A stretch of 64,000 nucleotides of DNA, taken from positions 124,001-188,000 of the forward strand of contig CAIUMP010000021.1 in assembly GCA_903900335.1 (NCBI GenBank), in the 5' to 3' direction. Source of the stretch: an uncultured Ignavibacteriota bacterium. GTDB lineage: Bacteria > Bacteroidota > Ignavibacteria > Palsa-1295. Both the position numbers and the translations under genes were made by a program. Positions 11,620-16,134 of the stretch are shown here, piece by piece (the stretch's first letter is position 1; each line of letters begins with the position of its first letter). Below the pieces are notes generated by a model that saw only the letters and a list, made by a program, of their open reading frames with translations, made no database searches and was not told where the DNA came from.

Positions 11620-13044
11620 CTACTTCTGAATGACTAGGTCAATACCGGCTCGGCAATCACCAATTGAGATTCGGCAGATGTAATGCCCGCTCGCTAGCGA
11701 CTCGCCTCCAAGCGAGATTGTTCGCGAACCTTCACTCTCGAAACCGGACGTAACGACTCGAAGTTCATGCCCAAGCACGTCATAGATAGAAATGTTGACC
11801 AATGCTCGGACCGGAACATTGTATTCCAACTCTGCTCTTCCCGAGGTAGGATTCGGAAATAATGTTGCAGTCAAACCGGGCTCAGGAATTGCGCCCTGAC
11901 CGACACCACTGGCGCACGGATTGCAGTAAAGTTTCTGGAATTGACACTTGTCTTCATCCGTCAATCCGCCAGGAATAGGCGAATAGTCACGCGGGTATGC
12001 AGGCATCATCACCGTCCAGTACCCATTGGGGTTCAGGCTGCTATTAGAATTGATTGAGGGATTTGCAGTATAGCAATTCGGACAGCTTGACCCAAGCTCG
12101 TCGGGGTGGTGCATTCCCAGCAAGTGGCCAAGTTCGTGTTGAACAACCTCGAAAAAGCTGACGGCATCGAAGCCGGACTGAGTGAAGGGCTTGCCGGAAG
12201 TGGAGGTGTACCACCCCGTATGATGAACATCATGAATCGCATAATTGGGATCTGGGCCTGAAGGGCTAGTGGATTGATCCAAAAAGTCGTCCGAGACATT
12301 GAATAGGATATAGCGATCATTATGAGGGCAGTGATCTTCATTACAGGTTGGATACCCTGGTTTACCAGCCATATCTTGTGTGTAGGCCTCAGTTCCCACA
12401 GGATCAAGCCCCAAATCATTAAAGTCGAGAGCATTGTCGTCCATGAGAACATGAAAACAACAGTTTGGGTCGCCGGGGGAGGGTGGAATCGGAGGAATGC
12501 ACACATTCAGCCAACTCTGTAGAGCTGTATTGGCGTCAGAACCAGCGTCATTGTCATCATATATTGTTGCGTACCCGTGCGAGGCAGCGTTGAAGGCAGC
12601 CAAATCAGCATTGTACTGAGCAAGTGCCGCTTCGTATTCTGCCATATCACCACCATAATAATCCAAAGTCGGTGGATTATCTGCCCCGTCGGCAGGTGAT
12701 TCACCATTGTCAAATAGCTCTTTATCATACTCCCACTGATCGTGTTCAACAGTACCGCTACTTGGTTCAACGGGAAAAGTTGGGGGTGGAGTTTTCGGTT
12801 GTAACGTTGCATCTGGACGTATTGCATCCACGCAGACACTGTTTGGTATCCAGGATTTGGTCGGTGTCCCGTCTGCATTGGGATTTGCTGAACACCGTGT
12901 CACCTCTTGGCCGTTCTCGCAAAAAGTGTAAGGAAATTTCTGTTCGCATCAGGGAATACTACAATTTGAGTGAGGAGGTGTCTGGGCTCTACCCTGCAAA
13001 ACACCCAGCGTTGTTAATACAAAAATCAATAAGGTTCTTTTCAT
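11620..13044 (-). CDS. Secreted zinc metallopeptidase with T9SS tail, interrupted by in-frame TGA
   Basis: A matrixin-like metallopeptidase: VVQHELGHLLGMHHPDE is the HExxHxxGxxH zinc site with an extra histidine, and a downstream VMMPAY segment may be the Met-turn. The last ~85 residues (LFPNPTSGRAELEYN to the end) are a T9SS sorting domain. From the ATG at 13044 the frame encodes a clear signal peptide (MKRTLLIFVLTTLG...GRAQ) and then meets TGA at 12949-12951, codon 32; the same frame continues without a break to 11620. The uninterrupted part can only start at GTG 12903, giving 427 residues with no signal peptide. Either a nonsense mutation, a base error or read-through explains this. It is the last gene of a five-gene operon. 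Confidence 0.8.
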
Positions 13045-13071
13045 GGACGTATCGCGTACCTTGATTGATTA

Positions 13072-14076
13072 TTAACGATTGATAAGCGCAGCAATTCTTC
13101 CTCTCAGGCGCGACTTCCATTCTGCAACAGTCAGTCCTGTTGCGCCAAATCCAAAGTCGTCATTAGGATCAAAAACGATCCCATTTAGGACGGGATACAT
13201 TCCACCACAGGAAGGGAAGCCATGTGGAACGGTGGTAAAGTAGTACTGATTATGATTTGAATGATCATAGCCAATCCCAAGGAAGCTTAGGAAGACAATG
13301 TACTCTTGACCAGGCTTAATCCACCATCCGCCAACAGCATCTCTTAGCTGGGTGGAATGTGTATCGTCGTTTGGCCCGGTTGACCACTCCGGTGAATATT
13401 GGAACTGAATACACGCGCCTACAGATGCTGTGTCCGCATAGGTTGGTGAAAAACCATTGCTTTGGGTTTTCGCACCTTTTCCTATTGTACGCGTATTTTG
13501 AGGACATGCAGGCTTATGCAGCCCCTTAATCTCATCAAGAATTGTGGCATTCACTAGCACCTCGTCTAATGCAGCATGCGCGTAGGGATCTTGTGTGCAA
13601 ACAGTATCCTGAACTATGATATCCGAGATGATTTCAGGGAATAACAATGCGGCTGTTCGCCCCGTGTCGGTTGCCGTCAGTAGGACATGCTTCGCGAAGA
13701 GATATTCACCCTGACCAGGATCCCAGTGGTAAGGGTTCGGTGTCATGCCTCGACCAGACCAAAGATAATAGGAGACCGGGTTGTCGTCCTGCATCCTATA
13801 GAGCACCGCCGCAATGGTCTTTGCCGTATCCCCCCATGTAAGTGAGTCGATAAACGAGGAGATTTGTCCCCAATTATCGTGGCGAAGTGCTGCATCGAGC
13901 CATAAGTACGCTGTTGTGACCTGGGATGGCTGCCCCGGATAAATCGGCGGAGCAGATGCATCCAATGACATCCGATAGAGTAGTGGGCCTCCATAAGTAG
14001 GGGGCTGCGCACTAGCACCAGGGCCAAAGGCTACGAGAAGCATCAGGCTCGTTGCAATCAAGAACGCTTTTTTCAT
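13072..14076 (-). CDS. Exported protein of unknown function
   Basis: A 334-residue protein with a clear signal peptide (KKAFLIATSLMLLVAFGPGASAQ). I do not recognise the mature part. It contains scattered cysteines (TVCTQD, HKPACPQN, VGACIQF, FPSCGGMY) that could form disulfides. No T9SS tail is apparent. It overlaps the upstream small gene by four bases (ATGA) and sits 27 bases before the metallopeptidase signal-peptide start, so it belongs to the same sigma-factor-led operon and is probably exported with its neighbours. Confidence 0.75.
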   Translation of the reverse strand: MKKAFLIATSLMLLVAFGPGASAQPPTYGGPLLYRMSLDASAPPIYPGQPSQVTTAYLWLDAALRHDNWGQISSFIDSLTWGDTAKTIAAVLYRMQDDNPVSYYLWSGRGMTPNPYHWDPGQGEYLFAKHVLLTATDTGRTAALLFPEIISDIIVQDTVCTQDPYAHAALDEVLVNATILDEIKGLHKPACPQNTRTIGKGAKTQSNGFSPTYADTASVGACIQFQYSPEWSTGPNDDTHSTQLRDAVGGWWIKPGQEYIVFLSFLGIGYDHSNHNQYYFTTVPHGFPSCGGMYPVLNGIVFDPNDDFGFGATGLTVAEWKSRLRGRIAALINR

Positions 14077-14475
14077 CCAAGCCTGCCTGCGAATTGAGTT
14101 CTTTCGATTGGCAGAGACTTTGGATTGAGCAGATCAACGGTCCTAATCTCCACATCTGGTGTGGGCAGCAGTTGTCCGTTGCACGGTAATTGAATTTTCA
14201 TGATAGCAGCATAGAATGAATTACCTGTTCCTTCGCCAATCAGCAGACAGCCATCATGGTAGGTCCAATGTTTCCCAGGGCAGGACGACGGTAATAGTTC
14301 TGTGGGAACCATCGTTGCCCTGAATATCAAATTCATCCGTCTGGCAGCCATCTGCAGTTGTTCCACGCCCCATCCAAACATATCTCACAGCCCAATCCTT
14401 GTTAGGCAAGAGCGCCAGCATCCCCAAAAGTACTGCCGCCCCAAGAAGGGAAGTCCGTTTCATACTGTGTGTCAT
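14073..14475 (-). pseudogene. Small exported protein, split by a frameshift
   Basis: The ATG at 14475 (or 14463) starts a signal peptide (MKRTSLLGAAVLLGMLALL) and a frame that stops at 14254. A second frame, open from 14381, continues to 14073. Joining them near 14273-14282, by removing one base in either the CCC or GGG run, gives a single protein of about 133 residues running through ..ITVVLP and ..KHWTYHDGCLL. The joined gene overlaps both neighbours by four bases at its two ends, which strongly supports it being one original gene. Function unknown. Disruption could be real or a sequencing indel. Confidence 0.7.
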
Positions 14476-15512
14476 TGTATTTGAATCTTTTTGGTTAGAG
14501 TGTTGATACCATCGGTCAACCGGAGAAAATAGGCACCGGGTGGAATTCGTGCATCAATCTCGAAGCTAGAGTTACCAGAATGAGCATTGAATAGTACGGA
14601 TCTGCTTGTTTCACCGAGTACATTGACAACTTCGCATTGAATATGTCCCGATGCTTCAGAATTCAGCTCTATCTGGATTTTTCCATACGTTGTGCTGGAA
14701 ATCGTGACAGCCTTCAACGCGAAAACAAGCGGGATGCTGTTAATCGGGATAGCCGGTTTGAATGCGGTAAAGCTGCAATTGTCTTGAAATTCTCCACACA
14801 CATTCCCTGTCACTGTTGGTTCTTGCTCGGCCATCGAATAAGGGTAGTGGGTAAAACTCGAACCTAGTGGGATAACGGATGACATCCTTACGGCAACATA
14901 GGCGAGAGTCCCCATTCCCGCGGAGCCGATGCATTCAATCCTATGACTGGCGGTGTTTCGCGTAGTTGAGAATCGTAGCTTTCCACCTCCATTTGCGTAG
15001 CAGGTAACGGTATCGAGCCGAAGGAGTACCGCGTTATCACTCGCTCTTCTAAGCTCAACGATGTAGCGCACGCTAGATGATGATGCAAAGGAGGCTGTGT
15101 CCGGTGTGATGGTCTTTGCACTTAAGATGGTCTCCCAAGCGGCTATGACCGAGTCAGCTTGAGCTCCTGGAGTTGTAATATCAACATCCGTGAACAAGAC
15201 TCCCTTTGAATCGAAATTCATTACCCGATAGAATGAGAGGGAGTCACTACTGTCTGCTACGATAAATGAATTGGTCACAAGAAAATCCGAGGCCGGAGAA
15301 GTCCAAGGTGCGGCGACGAAGCCGAGATATGAAGACCCCGTGGATTGCAGTAATCCAATTTCTCCTATTCTGTAGCTGAAGATAGTGGAATCAGGGAGAA
15401 TGCTCCTCAATGTCCGATATTGGATACTGTCCCCTGACTGGGCCGCACTGTCCTTCAGTGAATAGACGGACGACAGGAGGGCAATTGCAAGAACAATTAC
15501 TCGTTTCATCAT
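14472..15512 (-). CDS. Exported protein with T9SS sorting domain
   Basis: A 346-residue protein with a signal peptide (KRVIVLAIALLSSVYSLKDSAAQ) and a C-terminal beta domain typical of T9SS cargo: IQCEVVNVLGETSRSVLF, then PPGAYFLRLTDG and a KKIQIQ end. The middle is beta-rich with no family I recognise. It is the second gene of the operon, 34 bases after the sigma factor, and its stop overlaps the start of the next gene by four bases. It is likely exported to the cell surface. Confidence 0.8.
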   Translation of the reverse strand: MMKRVIVLAIALLSSVYSLKDSAAQSGDSIQYRTLRSILPDSTIFSYRIGEIGLLQSTGSSYLGFVAAPWTSPASDFLVTNSFIVADSSDSLSFYRVMNFDSKGVLFTDVDITTPGAQADSVIAAWETILSAKTITPDTASFASSSSVRYIVELRRASDNAVLLRLDTVTCYANGGGKLRFSTTRNTASHRIECIGSAGMGTLAYVAVRMSSVIPLGSSFTHYPYSMAEQEPTVTGNVCGEFQDNCSFTAFKPAIPINSIPLVFALKAVTISSTTYGKIQIELNSEASGHIQCEVVNVLGETSRSVLFNAHSGNSSFEIDARIPPGAYFLRLTDGINTLTKKIQIQ

Positions 15513-15546
15513 TTTGGAAAATTAAGTTCAATAGACTTCCATCAAC

Positions 15547-16134
15547 TTATAAGTCCCTATCCCCCTTCCCATTCGCCACACGAATCCATTTTTTATTCGA
15601 ATTATTTTTGGTGTGGTTATTGCGGGGGGGGGGGGCAAGCTCATCCTCTTTCGCGAGCTTACGTGCCTGCTTCTCGGAGCGTTCTTTGAGATGGTAAATC
15701 GCATCGAGCGTCTTGCCCATCGCAAGAGCAATCTCGGAAAGATCAAAATCCTTGCGATAAAATAGGATCATAAATTTCCGATAGTCTCTTCTCATTCGAC
15801 GGAGTATGGAATCGTTGGTCAGTTTTGCATTGATCTCACTTGCGGCAACGTCGTGGGAGTCCGGATCGGCAGTAACATCCATGCTTGGTCGTTCTAGTTT
15901 GGCTCTTCGAATTCTCTTCAAGAGTGAGTTCTTCGTCACCTTTCGTATGAATCCAAAAGGCTTGTCACCGTCTTTGAGTGATTCCTTACGGAAGGCTTCT
16001 ACGTAGGCATACACTCCCTCTGAGAGGGCCGTCTGAAAATCGGCCGGATCGACGTCACTAAAGCAGTGTTTCAATGACTTTCACACAAGTGGGCGTGTAC
16101 GCTCCACGTTCTGAACGAGTTCTTCTTCTGTCAT
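15547..16134 (-). CDS. Sigma-70 family (ECF-like) RNA polymerase sigma factor, interrupted by in-frame TGA
   Basis: The region 2-like helices (TALSEGVYAYVEAFRKES, GFIRKVTKNSLLKRIRRAK) and a region 4-like helix-turn-helix (FDLSEIALAMGKTLDAIYHLK) mark a small sigma factor. The natural start seems to be the ATG at 16134 (MTEEELVQNVERTRPLV), but codon 18 is TGA (16081-16083), after which the same frame is open; without read-through the first available start is TTG at 16074 (175 residues), lacking part of region 2. A run of 12 C bases (15624-15635) lies after the helix-turn-helix, so the tail could change by slippage. It heads the operon of exported proteins and may control it. Confidence 0.72.

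Follow-up and report, generated by a model that had tools for sequence, protein, structure and literature searches.

Five minus-strand genes form an operon at positions 11620 to 16134 of the window, the whole 64,000-nucleotide stretch of DNA that was analysed. A gene for an ECF-like sigma factor stands at its head and genes for exported proteins follow, as listed here.

15547..16134 (-): ECF-like sigma factor gene with an ATG start, assigned from a TIGR02937 sigma70-ECF match and the family alignment
15624..15635 (-): C12 homopolymer (minus-strand C, 12 bases) within the sigma gene's 3' tail, a putative phase-variation tract
15549..15623 (-): basic K/N-rich C-terminal tail of the sigma factor, in frame in the assembly and starting NNHTKNNSNKKW...
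14472..15512 (-): exported protein with a T9SS type A tail (T9S), intact, assigned from a domain match
14073..14475 (-): small exported protein gene, frameshifted near 14286, with an intact homologue in L042
13072..14076 (-): exported protein of an unlabelled family (DUF), intact
11620..13044 (-): metzincin-like zinc metallopeptidase with HELGHLLGMHH and a T9SS tail, assigned from the motif and domain matches

Direct reading and the ORF listing confirmed the layout given in the original prediction, namely five minus-strand genes with gaps of 34 nt or less and two ATGA overlaps. The intergenic gaps measure 34 nt between the sigma and T9S genes and 27 nt between the DUF and metallopeptidase genes, and the overlaps lie at 14475-14472 (T9S/small gene) and 14076-14073 (small gene/DUF). 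The view that a sigma factor heads a secreted-protein set also held, the sigma factor being ECF-like (TIGR02937) and the T9S and metallopeptidase products both carrying a T9SS type A sorting domain above the TIGR04183 cut-off. The metallopeptidase displays the HExxHxxGxxH zinc motif as HELGHLLGMHH, with a PF00413 match of 7.5e-5, just below the cut-off, and as a query against the genome contigs it gave matches mainly to its sorting-tail end. The DUF protein showed no Pfam or NCBIfam match, and no T9SS sorting domain was detected in it. Signal peptides of the operon products were judged by eye only.

The window sigma factor is divergent, matching TIGR02937 at 3.7e-7 and region 4 (PF08281) at 0.008, below the cut-offs. 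Among its relatives, region 4, the DNA-binding HTH, is recognised above the PF08281 cut-off in L051 (6.2e-12) and L106 (2.7e-6); region 2 is putative, indicated by a PF04542 match of 0.0011 in L141 alone and by a TIGR02937 match of 3.8e-13 over residues 15-156 of L051, above the cut-off. Single-sequence structure prediction returned mean pLDDT values of 44 for the sigma factor and 35 for the DUF protein, too low for use. Parallel operons at L106 and L103 comprise a sigma factor, a small exported protein, a propeller-like lipoprotein and a thioredoxin-like protein, these names being given by eye. A second stretch of sigma-tail and intergenic-like sequence lies upstream of another small exported protein at L103:587-850 and is perhaps a sigma remnant.

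The sigma gene contains one in-frame TGA, at codon 18 (16083-16081), and the metallopeptidase gene one, at codon 32 (12951-12949). In the small exported gene the ATG frame runs only to a stop at 14254; the reading frame shifts near 14286, and the rest of the gene is read to its end at 14073. These two nonsense codons and the frameshift had been noted originally and were all borne out, as was the otherwise in-frame state of the operon, with T9S and DUF genes intact and one lesion per broken gene. The sigma N-termini of L042, L051 and L052 align on both sides of the sigma TGA, the small gene of L042 aligns on both sides of the frameshift, and the metallopeptidase N-termini of L043, L041 and L046 do so across the codon-32 TGA. 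Homologues, both congeneric and from within the genome, align across each lesion, so the interrupted stretches represent real coding sequence.

The same gene order, which the original prediction had proposed to seek in relatives, is present in the congener G001, where L042 holds the sigma, T9S, small, DUF and metallopeptidase genes in identical order and all open, indicating that the module is real. Among 61 genomes, T9S homologues are confined to the window's genus (three in the window's genome, one in G001 and two in G006), and five of the six lie directly behind a sigma gene, counting contig C52, where a repeat-bearing tail stands at the contig start. Within the window's genome, one T9S paralogue directly follows the sigma gene of L051 and another a sigma-tail tract in L107. 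The DUF-metallopeptidase pair also occurs at L041, L043, L044 and L046, where no family sigma gene was seen adjoining, and G006 keeps a deletion remnant of the metallopeptidase at L045. Different genes lie beside the syntenic tpr gene in G003, G004 and G005, so the operon is accessory there.

Decay, assembly error and recoding had all been proposed as explanations of the lesions. Decay of an accessory module is favoured as the best fit, in view of the second, TGA-broken peptidase copy (L041), the deletion remnant in G006 (L045) and the different genes found at the syntenic site of G003, G004 and G005, and the extra lesions of the window module, in the sigma, small and peptidase genes, most likely come from the module not being maintained. 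The main rival attributes the lesions to errors of assembly or consensus, the organism itself having an undamaged operon. This explanation, possible if somewhat doubtful, agrees with the single lesion per gene in otherwise in-frame sequence, with the difficult C12 run within the sigma gene and with the intact congener operon of G001. It accords poorly with the nature of two of the lesions, which are in-frame TGA codons in an ordinary sequence context rather than homopolymer indels. Moreover, no comparable split-gene cluster was evident in the remaining window under a coarse, non-exhaustive tiling, and a second metallopeptidase copy in the window's genome (L041) is also TGA-broken, at a different site.

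The third explanation, that TGA is read through or recoded in the module as selenocysteine, as tryptophan or by programmed readthrough, appears highly improbable, even though both nonsense codons of the operon and that of the second peptidase copy are TGA and two relatives, L043 and L046, have Cys at the position of the peptidase TGA. A SelB search of the genome returned only other translation GTPases, all under the cut-off, and the sub-threshold tRNA-Sec hits were Leu, Ser, Gly, Trp, Arg and Phe tRNAs; neither SelB nor tRNA-Sec, the pair sought as the criterion for a selenoprotein, was found in the window's genome. TGA also serves as the stop codon of the T9S and small genes of this operon, the family alignment shows V, L or G opposite the sigma TGA, the TGA of the second peptidase copy sits elsewhere, and the frameshift would be left unexplained. 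Recoding is therefore not supported, and its selenocysteine and tryptophan forms were rejected on the absence of SelB and tRNA-Sec, the TGA stops within the operon and the mixed residues that align with the TGA codons, which replace no single kind of residue.

The C12 run in the sigma gene, which ties the operon to a family of repeat-tailed sigma factors, is a more unusual feature than the broken genes, and the original prediction mentioned neither the run nor its recurrence in related genes. Scanning the 4.0-Mb genome located only 13 G/C runs of at least 9. Six of them reach 12 or more: five lie in sigma-gene tails of one family, and one falls where a small exported protein has its signal peptide. 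With the sigma family making up about 0.1% of the genome, the chance of this concentration is about 1e-14 by our own arithmetic. The five sigma-tail runs are on contigs C21 (the window operon), C31, C50, C49 (contig end) and C52 (contig start), three of the five being internal to their contigs. The C49 run, G37 at the contig end, may be partly a sequencing artefact. On C52 the run starts after only 17 bases of contig and lies just ahead of a T9S homologue; the sigma gene there is deduced from this downstream homologue and the tail sequence. A sixth family member, L051, carries (GACGAAC)x6 in the equivalent place.

Congeners bear repeats in the same position, with C12 in L141 (G003), G14 in L144 (G001, a weaker member), C9 and C10 in L047 and L048 (G006) and shorter runs in L049 and L050 (G006); the members L042 (G001), L142 (G004) and L240 (G006) are repeat-free. 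The control set of ordinary ECF genes, drawn from this genome and related ones, had no run longer than 5 in the coding tails. The sequences suggest that the sigma-tail repeats, placed just after region 4 and usual in the family, are probably hypermutable simple-sequence repeats. In L144 (G001:C1:23311-23745), another frame past the G14 run reads as the closing part of a T9SS-type sorting domain, looking as though a deletion fused the sigma tail with a cargo gene.

Long G/C runs were also observed in other genes. At L198:2497-2517 (G007) a C run lies near the N-terminus of a sigma-like gene with an exported-protein gene directly downstream. C runs occupy LuxR-type HTH genes at L209:2562-2573 and L204:2587-2597, where the adjoining downstream gene encodes an exported protein, and at L206:2565-2579, close to a contig end. 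In the window's genome, G12 at L107:5675-5686 and G9 at L101:3106-3114 lie in the signal-peptide regions of small exported proteins, so translation of these genes would be frame-dependent. A further family has long G/C runs at its 5' gene ends (L218:80-90, L219:129-143 and L212:2499-2510); its C-terminus resembles GRYxVxLRIxDNxGNYSxFEMDWIV, and it lies behind a repeat-tailed sigma gene in L047 and L049.

Past the sigma repeat, one of the three frames encodes a short, basic tail with many K, R and N residues, carrying the motifs KNNSNKK in the window, KNNSEKK in L051, KNKSSKK in L103, KNKSKK in L047 and NNNNSKK in L048. The mean net charge of the best frame was 6.8, compared with 3.1 for shuffles (0 of 1000 reached the observed value) and 2.1 for ordinary gene ends, in a set of n=10 whose independence is lower than apparent because one LuxR-type gene is included and L047 and L049 are close paralogues. 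In L048 and L107 the frame of highest charge differs from the K/N-rich frame. In the assemblies the basic tail is in frame in the window, L047, L048 and L106 and out of frame in L051, L103 and L141; these differences are between loci, among paralogues and congeners, rather than among strains or within a population. Such a between-locus mixture of joined frames is what random slippage would leave.

The repeats may instead be neutral, unconstrained tails simply accumulating long runs. The tail is dispensable for the sigma fold, and three relatives have neither the repeat nor a long tail, as this explanation would have it. It was nevertheless rated unlikely, on the basis of the ordinary ECF tails of the same genomes, which hold no such repeats, and of the non-randomly basic sequence that follows the repeat. 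The sigma-tail repeats are also the longest of the genome, and similar repeats lie in regulators elsewhere, near the N-terminus of the sigma-like L198 gene and in the LuxR-type HTH genes of L206, L209 and L204.

The small ECF-like sigma factors standing ahead of exported-protein operons are read here as putatively phase-variable. On balance, though with no great confidence, the operon appears to be a decaying member of a genus-level family in which sigma genes, mostly repeat-tailed, come before genes for exported and often T9SS-targeted proteins, and whose repeats would act as a random switch. In the proposed mechanism, slipped-strand mispairing would alter the length of the sigma-tail repeat, and the altered length would add, remove or replace the basic C-terminal tail or, alternatively, change where the sigma stop codon falls with respect to the following gene. 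Sigma activity, or its coupling to the downstream genes, would then vary randomly between cells, and each operon would be expressed in part of the population only. Gene order by itself points to control of the adjoining operon by the sigma factor; the self-controlled expression suggested in the original prediction is putative. More tentatively, in this T9SS-bearing lineage the paralogous sigma factors with frame-switchable basic tails may form combinatorial random switches, each governing its adjoining exported-protein operon. If so, six or more loci would generate many surface or secreted states within one clone.

The tail is an unusual site for an on/off switch, which counts against the putative switch. 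In the window operon the TGA lies upstream of the repeat and probably disables the sigma factor unless translation restarts at TTG 16074, so that, barring such a restart, the switch is moot there. By eye, GGCTCTTA-like sequences recur between the sigma and exported genes. An exact-pattern genome search for this element gave counts near chance save at two of its own loci, and a second Gibbs run scored 12.83 against a shuffle maximum of 12.15, a modest excess with a different alignment. Given these results, a promoter between the sigma and exported genes is not firmly established and is not claimed.

In comparison with known systems, the T9S and metallopeptidase products resemble T9SS type A cargo (TIGR04183/PF18962), and their sorting tail is ordinary. 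From the sorting tails and the tmRNA tag, the source may be guessed to be a T9SS-bearing relative of Chlorobi/Kapabacteria. The sigma factors are small and ECF-like in sequence, as are ECF sigma-70 factors (TIGR02937; PF08281), and L051 and the window gene match TIGR02937; the window family differs in that no adjoining anti-sigma gene was seen and exported-protein genes come next, and in the repeat and basic tail added past region 4. If confirmed, the proposed system would have random switching act on the transcription initiator of whole secreted-protein operons, in a lineage that has received little study, and would offer a simple sequence signature for locating further such loci.

Most known cases of phase variation by homopolymer slippage concern surface-structure genes of host-associated bacteria. 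Homopolymer contingency loci are well established (Orsi et al. 2010, PMC2831843) and include the poly-G genes of Campylobacter (PMC7677240). Like them, the loci described here have long G/C runs within coding sequence, and the reading frame depends on run length; the likeness is drawn from the repeat in the coding frame and the differing frames among copies. Here, however, a sigma-factor gene bears the run in its 3' tail, and six paralogues in a single genome have repeats. The open-access literature that was searched yielded no account of a sigma factor being switched by a repeat within its gene. The closest conceptual precedent found is sigH of Staphylococcus aureus, whose production is turned on in a minority of cells by a reversible DNA change (Morikawa et al. 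2012, PMC3486894), proposed by its authors as a possible kind of contingency locus (PMC3486894). The change there is a short-junction tandem duplication that yields an N-terminal fusion (PMC3486894) and involves no repeat slippage, whereas repeat slippage is proposed here; the idea common to both is a switched sigma factor.
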